40,851 nt of DNA from Chitinophagaceae bacterium. Its GTDB lineage: Bacteria > Bacteroidota > Bacteroidia > Chitinophagales > Chitinophagaceae. The position numbers and the translations under genes were made by a program. Positions 15,916-24,987 of this stretch are shown here, one piece after another (the stretch's first letter is position 1; the number at the start of each line of letters is the position of its first letter). The notes below the pieces were generated by a model. It saw only the letters and a program-made list of their open reading frames with translations, made no database searches and was not told where the DNA came from. The stretch is taken from NCBI GenBank assembly GCA_947474815.1, contig CANJJU010000008.1, positions 1 through 40,851 of the forward strand, read 5' to 3'.

Positions 15916-17430
15916 ATGGAAAAGAAGAAGGTTTTATTGATTATTATGGATGGATGGGGACTAGGAAAAATTAAGGAAAGCGATGCAATTCAACATGCAA
16001 AAACGCCCTTCGTTAGTTCATTATATACCCAATACCCCCATACTACATTAATCACATGTGGAGAAGACGTAGGGCTTCCAGATGGACAAATGGGCAATAG
16101 TGAAGTAGGTCATTTAAATTTAGGAGCAGGAAGAATCGTATATCAAGAATTACAAAGAATCAATGTAGCTATCAAAGAAAAAGAATTTCAAAAAAATAAA
16201 ACTTTGCAAAATGCAATTGAATATGCAAAGAAAAACAATACCTATTTACATTTAATTGGATTGGTGAGTGATGGAGGAGTTCATTCTCATATCAATCACT
16301 TAAAAGCAATCATTTCTACTTGTAAAGACAAAGGGCTTGAAAAAGTATTGATACATGCATTTACTGACGGAAGAGATACGGATCCAAAAGCAGGGATCAA
16401 ATACATCAAAGAGCTCGAAGCATTCATGCAAAATTCTGTGGGGGAAATTGCTACCATCACTGGAAGATATTATGCAATGGATCGTGATAAAAGATGGGAA
16501 AGAATTAAAATTGCTTATGATGCAATGGTGCATTCCATAGGCACTAAAACTACCGATTTAATAAAAAGTATTGAAGACTCATACAACAACGGAATTACGG
16601 ATGAATTTATAAAGCCACTAATAAATCAACATGTAAGTAATGCAGCTATTCAAAAGGGCGATGCAGTAATATGTTTTAATTTTAGAACAGATAGATGCCG
16701 AGAAATTACAGAGGTATTGACGCAAGAAGATAAAACATCTTTTGAAATGAAAAAATTAGAATTGCATTATACCACTATGACTCAATATGATCATTCGTTT
16801 AAAAACATAGAAGTAATATTTAAAAACGATGACCTTAAAAATACATTGGGCGAAATTTTATCTGCTAGCGGAAAAACACAATTAAGAATTGCCGAAACAG
16901 AAAAATATCCGCATGTTAGTTTTTTCTTTAGTGGAGGGAGAGAAAATCCATTTGAGGGAGAAAAGAGAATTATGATGCCCTCACCAAAAGTAGCTACTTA
17001 TGATCTTCAACCAGAAATGAGTGCTCCCGAATTAACGGAAGCGGTTATTTCAGAAATTAGTACAACGCACCCAGATTTTATTTGTTTAAACTTCGCAAAT
17101 GCAGACATGGTGGGGCACACAGGCGTTTGGGATGCCGTTATAAAAGCAGTTGAAACGGTGGACACTTGTGTAAAAAAAGTGGTGACCAGTGCCCTTGAAA
17201 ACAATTACACCATTTTTTTAACAGCGGATCATGGAAATGCTGATGTTGAAATAAACGAAGATGGTACACCAAACACAGCACACACTTTAAATCCTGTTCC
17301 CCTTTTTATTATCGATAAAAAATGGAATGGAAAGATCGCCAATGGAAAATTAGGCGATATAGCACCTACAATTTTAAAAATAATGGGACTTCCCAAACCT
17401 GCAGAAATGACAGGAAACATTTTAATCTAA
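15916..17430 (+). CDS. gpmI: 2,3-bisphosphoglycerate-independent phosphoglycerate mutase
   Basis: GpmI interconverts 3- and 2-phosphoglycerate in glycolysis and gluconeogenesis with two Mn2+ ions. The 504-residue protein of the alkaline phosphatase superfamily shows metal ligand D12 in IIMDGWG, the phospho-serine S62 in QMGNSEVGHLNLG, FTDGRDTDPKAG, GRYYAMDRDKRWER, NFANADMVGHTG and TADHGNADVE. Length is normal for the bacterial enzyme. A promoter-like box sits immediately before the ATG. A haem-binding protein gene begins 6 nt after its stop and is likely cotranscribed. Confidence 0.96.
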   Translation: MEKKKVLLIIMDGWGLGKIKESDAIQHAKTPFVSSLYTQYPHTTLITCGEDVGLPDGQMGNSEVGHLNLGAGRIVYQELQRINVAIKEKEFQKNKTLQNAIEYAKKNNTYLHLIGLVSDGGVHSHINHLKAIISTCKDKGLEKVLIHAFTDGRDTDPKAGIKYIKELEAFMQNSVGEIATITGRYYAMDRDKRWERIKIAYDAMVHSIGTKTTDLIKSIEDSYNNGITDEFIKPLINQHVSNAAIQKGDAVICFNFRTDRCREITEVLTQEDKTSFEMKKLELHYTTMTQYDHSFKNIEVIFKNDDLKNTLGEILSASGKTQLRIAETEKYPHVSFFFSGGRENPFEGEKRIMMPSPKVATYDLQPEMSAPELTEAVISEISTTHPDFICLNFANADMVGHTGVWDAVIKAVETVDTCVKKVVTSALENNYTIFLTADHGNADVEINEDGTPNTAHTLNPVPLFIIDKKWNGKIANGKLGDIAPTILKIMGLPKPAEMTGNILI

Positions 17431-17435
17431 CCAAA

Positions 17436-17936
17436 ATGAAACGACTACTTAAAATGCTGTTTTTTGTTGTATTGATCGCTTTTGTATTAATACAGTTTTA
17501 CCCAAAATCAAATAACAATATTTCAACCACGTCTTCTGGAAATGAAATCGAGAAAATTCATGCAGTTCCAAATGAAGTAATGAATATACTAAAGACAAGT
17601 TGTTATGATTGTCATAGTAACAATACCATTTACCCCTGGTATGCGAAATTTCAACCTGTTTCAATGTGGCTTAGCAATCATGTTGAGGAGGGGAAAGACG
17701 AACTTAATTTCTCAGAATTTGGCTCCTACTCACTTAGAAGACAATACCATAAGTTAAAAGAAATGGATGAACAAATTGAAGAAGGTGAAATGCCGCTTGA
17801 ATCATATACCCTTATACACAAAAATGCTAGCCTAAAAAAAGACCAAAAAGAATTAATCACTGGATGGGTTAGAGCCCTTAGGGATAGTTTTAAAACAAAT
17901 TATCCAGAGGATAGCCTAAAAAGGAAAAGTAAATAG
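17436..17936 (+). CDS. Haem-binding domain protein (CxxCH), membrane-anchored
   Basis: A 166-residue protein starts at the ATG at 17436, 6 nt after gpmI. An N-terminal hydrophobic segment (residues about 5-22, LLKMLFFVVLIAFVLIQF) acts as a signal anchor. A single c-type haem motif, SCYDCHSNNT, is followed by the aromatic IYPWYAKFQPVSMW, the pattern of the haem-binding domain family common in Bacteroidota. A basic, charged C-terminal half follows. It should face the periplasm. Its partner is unknown; roles in respiratory electron transfer or haem sensing are possible. The frame is open upstream into gpmI, but that extension would be an artefact. Confidence 0.8.
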   Translation: MKRLLKMLFFVVLIAFVLIQFYPKSNNNISTTSSGNEIEKIHAVPNEVMNILKTSCYDCHSNNTIYPWYAKFQPVSMWLSNHVEEGKDELNFSEFGSYSLRRQYHKLKEMDEQIEEGEMPLESYTLIHKNASLKKDQKELITGWVRALRDSFKTNYPEDSLKRKSK

Positions 17937-18035
17937 AACTATAAAAAGCTAATGGACAATCATACAGCTATTTTAACTATTATTACTTATAGTATAATAC
18001 AAATTTGCTTATATTTATCAGCCTAAATCTTCACT

Positions 18036-18617
18036 ATGACCGAAGAGCAAATGCTTGCCGGAAGTAAATTAAATCATGCCGTAGCACAGGAGCTGCTATA
18101 CAATAAATTCAGCCCCAAAATGCTAGGGGTTTGTTATCGCTTTGCCAAAAACAGACAAGATGCCGAGGATATGTTACAAGAAGGTTTTATAAAGGTTTTT
18201 GCACAACTTCATCAATACAGAAACGATGGAAGTCTTGGAGGATGGATTAGACAAATCATTGTACATAGCTGTATCAATCATTTAAAAAAGAATAAAAAAT
18301 TTACAGAGACATTAGACATTATTCATGCTGAAAACATTCATATAAGGGCAGATTATATTCCCTCTATCATACAAGCAAAACAAGTGGTAGAATGCATTAG
18401 AATGCTTCCTCTGGGCTATAGAACAGTATTGAATTTATTTGCAATAGAAGGATACTCGCATAAAGAAATTGGTATCCTACTTGAAATTGAGGAAAGCACA
18501 AGCAGAAGTCAATATGCAAGGGCTAAAAAAATGCTAGAAACACTATTAATAAAAAGAGATATATTATTTAAAGAGAAAAGTAAGATTTCCTTTGATTCAG
18601 CTATATCATTATTATAA
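18036..18617 (+). CDS. ECF-like sigma-70 family RNA polymerase sigma factor
   Basis: This 193-residue protein has only sigma regions 2 and 4, as in extracytoplasmic-function sigma factors. Region 2 (about 20-90) includes FAKNRQDAEDMLQEGFIKVF and GGWIRQIIVHSCINHLKK. Region 4 (about 125-180) includes LPLGYRTVLNLFAIEGYSHKE and a helix-turn-helix followed by SRSQYARAKKML. It would direct polymerase to an unknown regulon. The gene 27 nt downstream encodes a protein with a membrane segment and a barrel-like C-terminus that could be its regulator or target. A TATATTTA box (18010-18017) precedes the start. Confidence 0.9.
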   Translation: MTEEQMLAGSKLNHAVAQELLYNKFSPKMLGVCYRFAKNRQDAEDMLQEGFIKVFAQLHQYRNDGSLGGWIRQIIVHSCINHLKKNKKFTETLDIIHAENIHIRADYIPSIIQAKQVVECIRMLPLGYRTVLNLFAIEGYSHKEIGILLEIEESTSRSQYARAKKMLETLLIKRDILFKEKSKISFDSAISLL

Positions 18618-18644
18618 AGGAATAAATAAATGTTGAAGTGAAAG

Positions 18645-19892
18645 ATGGACAATAAATTACATAGAGGTTATTTTGAAGAATATCTGAAAGACGTGACAGA
18701 TGAATTTAGCATGTATCCAACAGCAAGGATTTGGAACAGTATCTATAATAATATACACCCTAACAAGAAACTCCCTTCTATTGTCACAAGCATTCTGATT
18801 ATTTTAGCGCTGGGCTTTTTAGGCAATAACAATACCATTCAGCCAAATAAGCCTGCTACTGCTAATAATACTGAAATGGTGGATTCGAAAATCCTTTTAA
18901 CAAAAAATCAAGACTTTTCAATCAATAATAATTCTATCTTAAAAATATCCCCTCAATTATCAGTTGTACATTCAAAAGCTATTTCAAGCAACACTTTTGA
19001 AGGAAGGAGCGAATCAACAAAAGATGCCAATACTTTATACTCGTCAAATAACTTACTACCTACAGAGAAAAATAATCAATACCCATTACAACATTCCCCT
19101 ATCAACAATGTAGTAAGTCCACAAATATTATTAAGAATAAACTCTATTGAAAAAGAAGCAATTCAACATCCAATAGCGCAGTACAAACAAGACCTAAACC
19201 GAAGAGGAAGCATCTCTTATCAATTATACACAACACCATCCCTTGAATATAGGTTCCCTTTGGCTGCCGAACAAACAACAGAATTGCTATCAGAATCAAG
19301 TGCATCAATGCTTAAAAATAGCAATAGCCAAGACAATAATTTGATAAATAAAGAGCCTAGCTTAAATATAGAGGCAGGAGGTGCATTGCTTATAAAAGTA
19401 TCAGATGCGGTAAGAATTAAAGCAGGTATGCAGTTAAATTATGCGAAGTTTAAGAATAGTTCAATACAATCAACGGCCTCACCTATTATAGGATCCTTTT
19501 CAAATATTAATGATCCAATAAACAATCATTCCTTTAATAATACAAGGTATCAAATCTCTTTACCTATTGGGACGGATTATAAAATCGCTGAAATAAATCA
19601 TTTACAATGGTTTGCTGGAGCCACTGTACAACCTAGCTTTACTGTAATGGGAAGTTCATATAATGAAAATAACGGAACGAGCCAGTACAGTCAACCTTTT
19701 GATATTATGCGTAAATGGAATGTAAACACAAGTATAGAAACCTTTTTTAGTTATACATTAAAAAACGGATCTACTTTAAATGCTGGCCCACAATTTAGGT
19801 ACCAGCTGTTTTCATCCTATGGTAATAATTACAACTACGATGAAAAATTGTATAACATTGGAATTAAGCTAGGTATTACTAGAAACTTATAA
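18645..19892 (+). CDS. Membrane-segment protein with outer-membrane-barrel-like C-terminus
   Basis: A 415-residue protein with no known-function match. Residues 1-40 are soluble and charged (YFEEYLKDVTDEFSMYPTARIWNSIY). A single hydrophobic helix lies at about 44-60 (LPSIVTSILIILALGFLG). A long Asn/Ser/Gln-rich linker runs to about 235. The last about 175 residues alternate in beta-strand fashion (NIEAGGALLIKV, LNAGPQFRYQLFSSYG) and end IGIKLGITRNL, like a PorT-type outer-membrane barrel. The N-terminal layout resembles anti-sigma factors, and the gene follows a sigma factor. Whether it regulates that factor is inference. The same arrangement recurs in Chitinophagaceae as far as I recall. Confidence 0.65.
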   Translation: MDNKLHRGYFEEYLKDVTDEFSMYPTARIWNSIYNNIHPNKKLPSIVTSILIILALGFLGNNNTIQPNKPATANNTEMVDSKILLTKNQDFSINNNSILKISPQLSVVHSKAISSNTFEGRSESTKDANTLYSSNNLLPTEKNNQYPLQHSPINNVVSPQILLRINSIEKEAIQHPIAQYKQDLNRRGSISYQLYTTPSLEYRFPLAAEQTTELLSESSASMLKNSNSQDNNLINKEPSLNIEAGGALLIKVSDAVRIKAGMQLNYAKFKNSSIQSTASPIIGSFSNINDPINNHSFNNTRYQISLPIGTDYKIAEINHLQWFAGATVQPSFTVMGSSYNENNGTSQYSQPFDIMRKWNVNTSIETFFSYTLKNGSTLNAGPQFRYQLFSSYGNNYNYDEKLYNIGIKLGITRNL

Positions 19893-19933
19893 AAAAATAA
19901 TTTCACCACCCTCATTTGGAATAAAATAATGGC

Positions 19934-19964
19934 TTTGAAATGAGTCATTTTCTAACTAATTTTA
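19934..19964 (+). promoter_or_regulatory. Promoter of the 190-residue lipoprotein gene, with palindrome in spacer
   Basis: TTTG (19934-19937), a 19-nt spacer and TAATTTTA (19957-19964, one mismatch to TAnnTTTG) form a good Bacteroidota promoter. Only AAGT separates the -7 box from the ATG at 19969. The spacer opens with AAATGAGTCATTT (19938-19950), a perfect palindrome around a central G, which would place a bound regulator between the two promoter elements. Confidence 0.5.
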
Positions 19965-19968
19965 AAGT

Positions 19969-20541
19969 ATGAAAATTCATTTCTCCTTCGCCCTTTTATT
20001 GATAGTTCAATTATCTTGTACGCAACCAAATAATACCGTTAAACAAGTTCAAGAAAAAGAAAATTCAGAATTCTTCCCTGTAGGAAATTATATAAAAGGT
20101 CAATTAATTGACATTCAAAATAAAGGCATTACCCCTATAAAATTTATAAAGAAAAATGAAGCCTTAGATTCTTCCTGGATAAAAACATCACAAATGGAGA
20201 GCGAATTTTCAGAATATACTGAACCTTCGATTGACTCTATTACAGTTGCTCCCTTTTTTACTGTAAAGAAATTTTTCGACCAAACGCTTAATCTAATCAC
20301 CTTGTCATACGATCCTACAGGCCCGATTCCTGATAGTATTCCTTGGCGACATTGGGATATTTACATAGACCCTGAAACGAATACTATAAAAAGGATTTAT
20401 CTTGTTAAATCGCTTAAAAACAATAGCATCAGACAACTTACATGGATCACTGGCAAATATTGCAAGGCTATAACAATAGAAGAAGATTTGCAAGGAAAAT
20501 CAACCATAAGCAATGAAGTAATTATTAAATGGGGGTACTAA
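19969..20541 (+). CDS. Lipoprotein of unknown function
   Basis: This 190-residue protein has a lipoprotein signal peptide with lipobox cysteine at residue 17 (LLIVQLSC). The mature protein is polar, with a conserved-looking core rich in aromatic and proline residues (PDSIPWRHWDIYIDPETN, IRQLTWITGKYCKAI). I recognise no domain. It has its own promoter-like sequence with an operator-like palindrome, and uvrC begins 6 nt after its stop, so it may lead the uvrC transcript. Its link with the upstream sigma/barrel pair is only positional. Confidence 0.7.
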   Translation: MKIHFSFALLLIVQLSCTQPNNTVKQVQEKENSEFFPVGNYIKGQLIDIQNKGITPIKFIKKNEALDSSWIKTSQMESEFSEYTEPSIDSITVAPFFTVKKFFDQTLNLITLSYDPTGPIPDSIPWRHWDIYIDPETNTIKRIYLVKSLKNNSIRQLTWITGKYCKAITIEEDLQGKSTISNEVIIKWGY

Positions 20542-20547
20542 TACACT

Positions 20548-22353
20548 ATGACGGCTGCTGAATTTTCTCTATTATCGAAAAAAGTGCCTACACTACCAGG
20601 CATCTATAAATACTACGACATTTCTAATAAGTTAATTTATGTAGGAAAGGCCAAGCATTTGCGCAAAAGAATTAGCAGTTACTTTTATTCTACCCAACAC
20701 AATAGAAAAACAATTGAATTAGTAAAGCGCATTTATAAAATAGAATTTACCATAGTCAACAATGAACAGGATGCTTTTTTATTGGAAAATTCTCTCATTA
20801 AAGAACACCAGCCAACTTACAATATCAATTTAAAAGATGACAAAACCTACCCTTATGTAGTGATAAAAAAAGAGGCCTTTCCGAGAGTTTTTTTAACCAA
20901 AAAAAAGATAAATGATGGGTCGCAGTATTTTGGACCCTACGCATCTGTAACTAGCGTGAAAGAAGTGATTGGTTTCATAAAAGAATATATTCCACTTCGC
21001 ACATGCACTTTAAAGCTTACAGAAAAAAATATTAATTCGAAAAAGTTCAAGGTTTGTTTAGAATACCATTTAGGAAACTGCAAGGGCCCCTGCGAAGGAT
21101 TGCAATCATTAGAAGATTACGAAAAAAATATTGAGCAGCTAAAAGACATCATTAAAGGGAATGTAACACCCATTATTAAGGAATTTAAAAAAACAATGAA
21201 CATTCATGCTAAAAGCATGGAGTTTGAAAAAGCGGCTATTTATCAACAAAAGATCATTAACCTTCAACAGTATCAGGCAAAATCAACTGTTGTAAATACC
21301 AAAACCGGAACGGTAGATGTATTCAGTATTATTGAAGAAGGGAATCTTGCTTTTGTAAATTACTTAGCAGTAAGTAATGGGAATATCATATTAACCAAGA
21401 CCATTACCCTTGAGAAAAAACTGGATGAAACCAAAGAAGAAATACTTCCATTTGCCATTGCCCAACTAAGAGAAACTTTCAATAGTCAAGCAAATGAAAT
21501 AATTATTCCATTTAAAATAGACTTCCCTCAACAAGACATTAAAATATTGATTCCAAAAGCAGGAGACAAGAAAAAGCTTTTGGAGTTGTCACAAAAAAAT
21601 GTAGACTACTTCATAAGTGAATTGGAGGCAAAAAAAGCTTTGCGATTAGAAGATAAATCAGCAGAAGAGACAATAGCAATACTGCATCAAATTCAATCTG
21701 AGCTTCATTTAAAAGAAACTCCCCTTCATATTGAATGCTTTGATAATTCAAATCTTCATGGAACGAATGCCGTAGGTGCGATGGTATGTTTTAAAAATGG
21801 AGAACCTTCCAAAAAGGACTACCGACGTTTTAATATCAAATCTGTTGTAGGAATTGATGATTTCGCTTCTATGAAAGAGATTGTGTATAGACGTTATAAG
21901 AGAGTTATAGAAGAAAAGCAGCCACTTCCACAATTAATTATTATTGATGGCGGCAAGGGCCAATTAAGTGCGGCGCTAGAAAGTATTCAAACCTTAGGCC
22001 TCATCGGGAAAATAACCTTGGTAGGATTGGCAAAAAATAAAGAAGAGCTGTTCTTTTCCGGAGATACAGCATCCTTACAGCTACAATGGAGTAGTGAAAG
22101 TCTGAAATTGATAAGACGTATTAGAGATGAAGTGCATAGATTTGGAATAACCTTTCATAGAAATAAAAGAAGTAAATCTGCTATTCAACATGGATTAAAT
22201 AATATTCCTGGTATAGGAGTCAAAATAGCAGAGGCCTTACTGAAAGAATATAAGTCTATAAAAAAGTTAAAGGAGGTTGATCTAATTGCCCTTGAGAAAT
22301 TAATCGGCAAATCGAAAGCACACATCGTTTATAATGCGTTACAAACAATATAG
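20548..22353 (+). CDS. uvrC: UvrABC nucleotide excision repair subunit C
   Basis: UvrC makes the dual incisions around UvrB-bound DNA lesions. The 601-residue protein shows a GIY-YIG nuclease domain (GIY at 18-20, YVGKA at 31-35), a cysteine-bearing segment (CLEYHLGNCKGPC), a UVR domain (SMEFEKAAIYQQKIINL near residue 230), a C-terminal RNase H-like nuclease (IECFDNSNLHGTNAVG and IIDGGKGQLSAAL), and tandem helix-hairpin-helix motifs near the end (LNNIPGIGVKIAEALL). Length matches the family. It follows the lipoprotein gene by 6 nt and ends at a strong shared terminator. Confidence 0.96.
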   Translation: MTAAEFSLLSKKVPTLPGIYKYYDISNKLIYVGKAKHLRKRISSYFYSTQHNRKTIELVKRIYKIEFTIVNNEQDAFLLENSLIKEHQPTYNINLKDDKTYPYVVIKKEAFPRVFLTKKKINDGSQYFGPYASVTSVKEVIGFIKEYIPLRTCTLKLTEKNINSKKFKVCLEYHLGNCKGPCEGLQSLEDYEKNIEQLKDIIKGNVTPIIKEFKKTMNIHAKSMEFEKAAIYQQKIINLQQYQAKSTVVNTKTGTVDVFSIIEEGNLAFVNYLAVSNGNIILTKTITLEKKLDETKEEILPFAIAQLRETFNSQANEIIIPFKIDFPQQDIKILIPKAGDKKKLLELSQKNVDYFISELEAKKALRLEDKSAEETIAILHQIQSELHLKETPLHIECFDNSNLHGTNAVGAMVCFKNGEPSKKDYRRFNIKSVVGIDDFASMKEIVYRRYKRVIEEKQPLPQLIIIDGGKGQLSAALESIQTLGLIGKITLVGLAKNKEELFFSGDTASLQLQWSSESLKLIRRIRDEVHRFGITFHRNKRSKSAIQHGLNNIPGIGVKIAEALLKEYKSIKKLKEVDLIALEKLIGKSKAHIVYNALQTI

Positions 22354-22408: not shown

Positions 22409-23440
22409 TTAATAACTCCACAAATCTTGTTCGTAGTTAAATATCTTTTCTTTGATGTTTTCGCCTTCAAACAATTGAAGAATGCCATTGTTTTCCATAC
22501 CCGACATTGCTCTGATTTGAATGTCTTTTGGATTATCCATGGTACTTTTAATAATTCTTCCTGAAAACATACGGCTTTCGAATAGTTCTTCCCAGCTCAT
22601 ACGACCGCCATAATTTTTTCCATTGTATACTTCATATTTCGAAAAAACAGGACGCATATCTGGATAATATACCCAGAAGAGTTCTTTTGGACCTAAGAAT
22701 ACCCCTTGAGAAGTAATAACGTTTACTACTGGAGCAATTCCCAATATTCTCCAGAATAGTCTAGAACTTTCTTTATCAAAAATCACTTCTTCCTTCACAT
22801 GAAATTTATAAAAAGAATCTAGATTTAACTCACGGAATTTATATACTGGAGGAAGTGGATTTCCTAAAGAATCATAATTAATAACAGGGATTTTTTCTCC
22901 CAAAACCGCTTTTGCAACTTCAGACTTTGTCATTGGAGTAGTAAAGCGATCATCAATCGTTGAGAAAACTGTTACGGCGCTATCTTGTATAGCTTTAAAT
23001 AAAATAGATATAAAACTTTGATTTCCATTATTCTCGTCTGCAGCATACATGAAAGGCAAGTTTATTTTCTCCCTAGCATCAATTTCTCTCCAGATGCGAT
23101 GACGATACACTGCATCATCTGCACGAAGATGCTCATATGGCAAAGGAGTTCTTTCTCTTAATGTACTAGTTTCTACCGCCTCGTCAGGTCTAAGGGATTT
23201 TCTAACAGTTTTTATAGGCAAACTGTCTATTTCGGGCTCAACAACTACAACGGGCGCTTGCACAACAGCAGTAGTATCTACTGTAGGAGTAGCAGCTTTA
23301 ACATTTGATTTGCTTCTTGACTTGGTTGTTCTCTTCGTCGATTTACGAGAAGATTTTTTCTGAGCATCTACCATATTGGCGAAACCACAGAATAAAACTG
23401 TCAAAAAGAATAATTTAAGAAACCTCAATTTCATATACAT
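22409..23440 (-). CDS. gldN: Gliding motility / type IX secretion protein GldN
   Basis: GldN (PorN) is a periplasmic component of the type IX secretion system that, with the lipoprotein GldK, forms the ring attached to the outer membrane. The 343-residue protein has a signal peptide (LFFLTVLFCGFANMVDAQ), then a Lys/Arg/Ser-rich stretch and a Pro/Val-rich segment, and then the family domain from about residue 100 (YRHRIWREIDAREKINLPFMY, FWVYYPDMRPVFSKYEVYN, EELFESRMFSGRI). The first ATG (23440) is 5 nt after gldM; a second in-frame ATG two codons later (MKLRFLKL) is equally plausible. It is the last gene of gldKLMN. Confidence 0.93.
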   Translation of the reverse strand: MYMKLRFLKLFFLTVLFCGFANMVDAQKKSSRKSTKRTTKSRSKSNVKAATPTVDTTAVVQAPVVVVEPEIDSLPIKTVRKSLRPDEAVETSTLRERTPLPYEHLRADDAVYRHRIWREIDAREKINLPFMYAADENNGNQSFISILFKAIQDSAVTVFSTIDDRFTTPMTKSEVAKAVLGEKIPVINYDSLGNPLPPVYKFRELNLDSFYKFHVKEEVIFDKESSRLFWRILGIAPVVNVITSQGVFLGPKELFWVYYPDMRPVFSKYEVYNGKNYGGRMSWEELFESRMFSGRIIKSTMDNPKDIQIRAMSGMENNGILQLFEGENIKEKIFNYEQDLWSY

Positions 23441-23445
23441 TTTTT

Positions 23446-24987
23446 TTAAAATAGCGCTATAGATTTACCATCAATTGATCTAAGTCCATCTGGACCTTGC
23501 ACTTTTACATTATCAAAAGTAACCACTGAACCAGGGCCACATCTAGACATAAAAGAACTTAAAGAAGATAAATTATTTCCTTGAATTGTTGCTTGTTGAA
23601 CATTTGGAAAGTTAGCGCCCGAGAAATAAACAGTGGCACTTACCACATTAAATCTTAAATCAAAATCAAAGTTTTCCAAATCAGCACGACAGAATTGTTG
23701 ATTTTTAAATTCTACTGATGGCATTCTAGCTTTACCAGAACCAACCTTAAATACAGGATCTGGAATTCTTTTAATTCTAAATTCAAAAGTGCTAGGCTTT
23801 TTATCTGCTACTACAGTAATGATGGCTTTTTGTCCTGGTGTTGCTGCAGGGCGTACTACTCTATTAGAGGCCGTTCCTGTAATGGTTCCGTTGCTCATAG
23901 CAACTGTTGTTTTATCCCATCCTGTTGGAGAACCAATTGTAACTGGATTGTCAACCCCTATATAAAACACATTCATTTTATCAGGCATTACTGCTGCTCC
24001 ACCTGGAGTTCCTACAGTATATTTTACATCAAATGTTTTGGTTTCTTTTGTGCCATCAGGTTTAGTATAAGTAACATTTACAGCTACAGATTTAGAACCT
24101 GAACCACTTACCTTAAATTTTGACGTTGCTCTTCCATCTTCTGCTAATGGAACAGATGATCCACCGATGCTAATTTGAGGTTGAGCAGCTTTGCTATAAG
24201 AACCCACACCTGCATTGATCTCAAGTTCTTCTCCTGGCATTAGGTAATTTGAACTTTGTCCTACCAATGCAGCAAATTGATCATACACTACTTTAACGGC
24301 TCCTACTTGATTATGACAATAAGTAACTACTTGATTTTCGCCGTTTTTTACGTTGTTTTGAAATTTACTTAACAAAGTTAAAGCAGCAACAGTAGGAGTC
24401 ATGTGGAAATAAGCTGTTGTAAATTCTTTTTCTTTCCCATCCTGACCCTTTACTTTATCTTGAAAATCTACAGGAAATGTTTTATCGAATTCTTTTGCAA
24501 TGGCAGTATCAATTCCAAGCATTGCTTTTCTAAAAGCATTCAATTTATCTTTCAATTCAACTCCCTTGTTTTGTCCGCCTTTTTCATTTCCGAACAAACG
24601 AGTAGCTGCTTCTAAATCATCTTCTTTGAATTCTTCCACCATTTTTCCATCCACTTCCACCATTTTAGAATCTGCTTCTTTTTTAAGATCTATTTTCAAT
24701 TGATCTATATAAGAACTTAAATCAGAAGAAAGTTTTTTCGCCTGATTGGCCTTGTCATTCCATGGTTTTGCTTTTTCAGCAGTCATTGGGTCCTTTAGCT
24801 TAGCTTCCAATGATGTGTAAAGCGTGCTATTGGCTGAGTTTAAATTTTCATTTGAGGTCATCAAACTTTTATCTACAACCTTGAAGGCATTAAGGATTTC
24901 TGAAGATACATTCAGCGCCAACAAAGCAGTAAGCACAAGGTACATTAGATTGATCATCTTCTGCCTGGGCTCTTTTGGTAAAGACAT
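23446..24987 (-). CDS. gldM: Gliding motility / type IX secretion motor protein GldM
   Basis: GldM (PorM) spans the periplasm from the inner membrane and transmits rotation from GldL to the outer-membrane ring. The 513-residue sequence begins with the conserved PRQKMINLMYLVLTALLALN: arginine R8 (equivalent to R9 of F. johnsoniae GldM) precedes the single transmembrane helix at about 11-28. A long helical periplasmic domain (about 35-220) is followed by beta-rich domains, with VGTPGGAAVMPDKMNVFYIG near residue 325 marking a domain boundary. Length matches the family. It lies between gldL and gldN. Confidence 0.95.
   Translation of the reverse strand: MSLPKEPRQKMINLMYLVLTALLALNVSSEILNAFKVVDKSLMTSNENLNSANSTLYTSLEAKLKDPMTAEKAKPWNDKANQAKKLSSDLSSYIDQLKIDLKKEADSKMVEVDGKMVEEFKEDDLEAATRLFGNEKGGQNKGVELKDKLNAFRKAMLGIDTAIAKEFDKTFPVDFQDKVKGQDGKEKEFTTAYFHMTPTVAALTLLSKFQNNVKNGENQVVTYCHNQVGAVKVVYDQFAALVGQSSNYLMPGEELEINAGVGSYSKAAQPQISIGGSSVPLAEDGRATSKFKVSGSGSKSVAVNVTYTKPDGTKETKTFDVKYTVGTPGGAAVMPDKMNVFYIGVDNPVTIGSPTGWDKTTVAMSNGTITGTASNRVVRPAATPGQKAIITVVADKKPSTFEFRIKRIPDPVFKVGSGKARMPSVEFKNQQFCRADLENFDFDLRFNVVSATVYFSGANFPNVQQATIQGNNLSSLSSFMSRCGPGSVVTFDNVKVQGPDGLRSIDGKSIALF

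Follow-up and report, generated by a model that had tools for sequence, protein, structure and literature searches.

We find that an ECF-type sigma factor gene and the gene directly downstream of it in a Chitinophagaceae genome very probably encode a switch of the Dma/Reo kind, made up of a sigma factor and an anti-sigma factor that spans both membranes. The window analysed is a stretch of 40,851 nucleotides (contig CANJJU010000008.1), to which all positions refer unless another contig is named. What we observe is the gene pair, the domain order of the second protein with its predicted barrel, an almost invariable linkage between the genes, and a conserved promoter-like motif in the relatives. 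We assign the pair by the published descriptions of Dma1-3 and Reo. Dma1-3 are anti-sigma factors of Bacteroides thetaiotaomicron, two of which form the pairs Dma1/Das1 and Dma2/Das2 (PMC13088901), and EcfO/Reo is a sigma/anti-sigma pair of Bacteroides fragilis and Phocaeicola vulgatus (PMC9308784, PMC13114119). The architecture was in print in 2022 and was named as a class in 2024 (Pardue 2024 PNAS, as cited in PMC13088901). Going by these accounts it is already known (PMC9308784, PMC13088901), and the window pair is an additional member from another bacterial family. The initial annotation had suggested that a single chain reaching from an anti-sigma-like N-terminus to an outer-membrane barrel could carry a signal straight to the sigma factor, and our analysis supports this interpretation as right but not new. 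Of the outcomes named there as refuting it, neither a structure lacking a barrel nor orthologues lacking the sigma gene was observed.

The linked sigma and anti-sigma genes

The sigma factor gene (18036..18617, + strand) encodes a Das-like protein of 193 aa, for which we built an alignment of 48 rows (A4). Its product matches Pfam Sigma70_r2 (E 2.8e-16) and Sigma70_r4_2 (E 6e-13), both over the cut-off; among the best 25 NCBIfam rows, the general sigma70-ECF model TIGR02937 is the sole model over its cut-off. The gene of the Dma/Reo-type anti-sigma factor (18645..19892, + strand, 415 aa), identified by homology, alignment and a structural model, follows on the same strand after 27 nt, and both open reading frames have the boundaries given in the initial annotation. 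Upstream of the pair lie the phosphoglycerate mutase gene gpmI (15916-17430) and a haem-binding domain gene (PF14376, E 9.4e-47; 17436-17936) that ends 99 nt 5′ of the sigma gene. On the other side, beyond uvrC, the type IX secretion genes gldN and gldM (22409-24987, minus strand; TIGR03523 and TIGR03517 over cut-off) are convergent with uvrC. Among the genes identified at 14-25 kb of the window there is no TonB-dependent receptor.

The two genes stand together almost without exception. We assembled 81 distinct loci including the window, five duplicate loci having been dropped. In 79 of them a sigma homologue is the immediate upstream neighbour in the same orientation, at a distance of -14 to 76 nt (median 26). 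L001 and L115, the remaining two, both start at contig ends. The pairing of a sigma factor with an anti-sigma-like barrel protein, first proposed from a single locus, is thus confirmed by the open reading frames, the Pfam matches, the structural model described below and this co-occurrence. The same neighbourhood is found for weaker relatives (<120 bits), where 32 of 33 have the sigma gene upstream, the exception being L062. Five short relatives of 187-259 aa (L061, L074, L076, L079 and L083) match the N-terminal part, have a sigma gene upstream, and are possibly single-membrane versions that lack the barrel.

Within the family of the window, a search with the single protein hit 77 of 117 genomes and a search with profile A2 hit 89, of which 78 score >180 bits (counted from the table). 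A sigma orthologue of at least 296 bits is present in 73 of the 117 genomes, and 72 of these also have a Dma orthologue >180 bits; the remaining genome (G041) shows a Dma fragment, located where a contig ends. For the other genomes among the 78, four more sigma matches fall at 230-264 bits, a range with no score gap to paralogues, and two genomes (G112 and G078) have no full sigma gene, at a contig end. In wider searches, profile A1 at E <= 0.001 has matches in 38 of 149 genomes of the order and 29 of 296 of the phylum. Those with E <1e-20 are confined to the window's own family, and the others are weaker and mostly N-terminal. Among these weaker matches are 27 longer relatives with PF13568 in 14 and PF13505 in 13 (overlapping counts), and the architecture therefore extends beyond this orthologue group. 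More than one Dma-like gene is present in many family genomes. In the genome of the window we find a single strong Dma match and nine Sigma70_r2 matches. Two of the other eight Sigma70_r2 proteins resemble primary sigma factors, and the partners of the rest were viewed by eye. At one such locus (L037, contig C11, 1977-2907) another sigma gene is accompanied by a one-helix partner of 108 aa and by a periplasmic-looking protein of 243 aa with a small-residue motif, by eye the arrangement of an ordinary anti-sigma factor.

Predicted topology of the 415-aa protein

Family models identify little of the 415-aa protein. PF13568 (OMP_b-brl_2) is its only Pfam match, at E 0.0009 and under the family cut-off, and is found at E <= 0.01 in 65 of the 81 aligned homologues (window protein included). 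There is no NCBIfam match, and no anti-sigma family model of Pfam or NCBIfam matches it. A structural model was obtained with AlphaFold2 from the 81 sequences of alignment A2 (mean pLDDT 70.1, pTM 0.57); a single-sequence model (mean pLDDT 30.3, no strands) was dropped in its favour. The A2 model has helices at residues 7-21, 27-37 and 43-61, a coil without secondary structure at 62-189 (pLDDT mostly <55), and nine DSSP strand segments between 190 and 414. By ten-residue block, pLDDT is mostly 94-98 in the strands, 58-79 in the N-terminal domain and 67-72 in the helix at 43-61, and confidence in the N-terminal domain and the helix is only moderate. This is the layout put forward in the initial annotation, with an N-terminus, one membrane helix, a long linker and a barrel.

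Residues 190-415 (19212..19889) are predicted from PF13568, the model and fold matches to form an OmpA-like outer-membrane beta barrel. With VIA-align 2, residues ~186-415 fit OmpA best (Z 17.6, rmsd 2.8, 170 aligned) and also fit NspA, PagL, OprF, OmpW and designed eight-strand barrels. Foldseek concurs, with 35 matches at E <= 0.001. The segments 296-305 and 308-317 would be one strand interrupted at P307, which is invariant in A2; counted as one, they would give eight strands and place both ends of the barrel on the periplasmic side. The nearest named relative is a protein of a Chitinophagaceae MAG with 67% identity across residues 38-415.

The linker (residues 62-189; 18828..19211), bounded by the model and by conservation, comprises 128 residues and is taken to cross the periplasm. 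Its mean top-residue fraction is 0.24, compared with 0.54 for residues 1-42 and 0.51 for the barrel. Proteolysis within the chain is plausible because the linker is long, poorly conserved and modelled at low confidence, and other anti-sigma factors are cut during signalling. A constitutive cut in the periplasm would leave the N-terminal part in the inner membrane and the barrel as a separate protein, with no continuous chain at rest. However, Reo is described as spanning all compartments (PMC13114119), and we consider it improbable that the window protein is divided in this way.

Residues 1-42 (18645..18770) are predicted to form a cytoplasmic sigma-binding domain and residues 43-61 (18771..18827), from the model and their hydrophobicity, an inner-membrane helix. 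In the N-terminal 42 residues, E11, M23, P25, S26, W30, I33 and H38 are conserved at >=80% (M1 is also listed as conserved), with P25 and W30 near-invariant; the two predicted helices are conserved over the 81 sequences. A sigma-binding role of this part is indicated indirectly by its conservation, by the fixed linkage with the sigma gene and by the analogues Dma1/Das1, Dma2/Das2 and EcfO/Reo. A hydrophobic stretch of 19 residues (mean >= 1.5) is present in 76 of 80 sequences, and its N-terminal side is the more positive one in 56 of 80, so that the charge bias around the helix amounts to a modest lean towards N-inside. An A-x-A after the helix is found in just 8 of 80. The N-terminal conservation, the hydrophobic stretch, the charge lean and the rarity of A-x-A together speak, short of proof, for a membrane anchor behind a cytoplasmic domain rather than for a cleaved signal peptide. 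The alternative in the initial annotation was a signal peptide-like region ahead of a simple barrel; put more fully, cleavage would remove an unusual signal anchor and leave an ordinary outer-membrane barrel that lies beside a sigma gene by chance. The barrel is indeed the sole part with a family match, and such small barrels are common in Bacteroidota; PF13568 was found in all 99 genomes searched from the order, and for that reason a search with it across the order is uninformative. A chance neighbour, however, would fit poorly with the linkage described above, with distant relatives that retain the N-terminal part next to a sigma gene, and with a helix that starts at residue 43, behind a conserved domain of two helices. 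We regard the simple barrel as very improbable and retain the membrane-anchored anti-sigma factor.

A promoter-like motif and the lipoprotein-uvrC cluster

The region upstream of the sigma gene (17876..18035, + strand) carries a promoter-like motif, GCAGC-N15-17-TGTC, in most homologues. CAGC-N15-17-TGTC is present in 61 of 78 upstream regions. The form with N16 occurs in 50 of the 78, whereas no gapped word reached more than 9 in any of 20 block shuffles. Scored by a leave-one-out matrix, 67 of the 78 regions exceed the 99th percentile obtained by shuffling the window's region; a misplaced start codon may lie behind a few low scores. Across 117 genomes the strict form TGCAGC-N15-17-TGTCTAAATT has 16 sites, all 16 just 5′ of this sigma gene, and the reversed control has 0. 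With a looser form there are 56 sites, of which 37 belong to this operon and 19 do not; the control yields 7. A broad regulon is thus unsupported at strict stringency, and the 19 off-operon sites of the loose form compared with 7 in the control make a few more targets possible. The motif sites at the sigma promoter make it very likely that, in the relatives, the sigma factor transcribes its own operon.

The window copy itself is without a recognisable motif in this region (PWM score -5.0, compared with a mean of -6.7 and sd of 4.2 for its own shuffles). Motif-like sites are present in same-genus relatives (G034 as L016 and G245 as L053). Either the site has drifted in the window copy or its operon is driven by other means. 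Elsewhere in the window's genome there are 5 loose matches and no convincing site; the most promoter-like of the matches was rejected as coding sequence, being inside a long open frame.

In most homologues the gene order is sigma, Dma, lipoprotein, uvrC. The third gene of the window cluster (19969..20541, + strand) encodes a conserved lipoprotein, defined by alignment and profile, whose Cys17 is invariant over 69 aligned rows. The window copy has no Pfam match and no relevant NCBIfam match; a Pfam scan of the alignment gave weak DUF4901 rows in 6 of 69 (best E 0.00018) and none for the window copy. After 6 nt it is followed by uvrC (20548..22353, + strand; TIGR00194 485.9 bits, cut-off 285.45), a possible fourth gene of the transcript, and a scan of the + strand at 17850-20700 found no terminator-like site. 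By profile, the lipoprotein gene is downstream in 71 of 81 loci, in one at a distance of 1.2 kb. The uvrC gene is downstream in 75 of 81, both genes are there in 70 (counted from the table), and in 62 loci uvrC starts <=40 nt from the lipoprotein gene. The lipoprotein has a match in 99 of 117 family genomes. We also looked at 16 stretches (L128-L143) from genomes without a strong Dma orthologue, and 12 of them have the lipoprotein beside uvrC; the sigma-Dma pair was not seen in these stretches, some of which are cut by contig ends. We therefore rejected the idea that the lipoprotein is exclusive to the switch, as it occurs next to uvrC without the pair. There are also genomes with the switch in which the lipoprotein is located elsewhere (e.g. 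G064, G103 and G096).

The motif and the cluster, both read from sequence, imply autoregulation and perhaps co-control of uvrC. A bolder reading, which we hold to be rather unlikely, is that in this family an outer-membrane sensor is wired straight to DNA repair, the main or only strong promoter of the sigma factor being its own and the transcript running through sigma, Dma, a surface lipoprotein and uvrC. If so, an outer-membrane insult would raise the excision-repair nuclease subunit along with the lipoprotein. In a search mostly of literature outside subscription journals, we found neither the uvrC cluster and motif in print, nor a tie of uvrC to a sigma or anti-sigma factor in Bacteroidetes, nor a beta-barrel anti-sigma factor of Chitinophaga.

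Comparison with known switches and proposed mechanism

Surface signalling of the Fec type (FecI/FecR/FecA) uses three proteins including a TonB-dependent receptor. The likeness to the window pair is that an outer-membrane signal frees a sigma factor; the difference is that in the window pair a single chain is predicted to serve at both membranes, so that the 415-aa protein would bypass the receptor. The closer likeness is to Dma/Das as described, with an N-terminal anti-sigma domain, one TM helix, a long disordered tether, a C-terminal barrel, a neighbouring ECF sigma gene and one or more further genes downstream. The window pair differs in coming from another family of the phylum and in its downstream genes, which are the lipoprotein and uvrC rather than the DUF4943/DUF4858 genes described for Dma/Das. 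EcfO/Reo, by its descriptions, likewise has a sigma gene followed by a long anti-sigma factor predicted to span the periplasm and to end in an outer-membrane barrel. The EcfO regulon is reported to include three nigD lipoprotein genes, whereas strict motif sites occur here only at the operon itself and the lipoprotein beside the window pair has no match to any Pfam NigD model.

In Bacteroides thetaiotaomicron, deletion of dma2 raises das2 and nearby genes with a das2-dependent phenotype, and the reported targets of Dma2 are chiefly its own operon and PULs (PMC13088901). For EcfO/Reo, insertions in the anti-sigma gene activate the regulon and outer-membrane attack induces it (PMC9308784, PMC13114119). 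By analogy with Dma2/Das2 and EcfO/Reo, we infer that the partner holds the sigma factor and releases it on outer-membrane disturbance. Residues 1-42 would hold the sigma factor in the cytoplasm, the predicted helix would sit in the inner membrane with the linker across the periplasm, and the barrel, placed in the outer membrane, would report its state. A disturbance of the outer membrane or of barrel assembly may then pull on or cut the chain and release the sigma factor. The freed sigma factor would transcribe its own operon, which in the relatives is sigma, Dma and lipoprotein with uvrC close behind. The sign of regulation is not visible from sequence alone, but in the published analogues the sigma regulon is switched on when the partner is lost (PMC13088901, PMC9308784), and a role of the partner as a positive regulator, either a co-sigma factor or a surface-signalling helper, is very improbable.

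The conserved motif and the fixed lipoprotein/uvrC cluster provide concrete targets for tracing what such switches sense and what they control. As 78 of 117 genomes have a strong orthologue, the dual-membrane anti-sigma design of gut Bacteroidales is also common in Chitinophagaceae, and from the multiple Dma-like genes in many genomes a single cell probably contains several of these switches.
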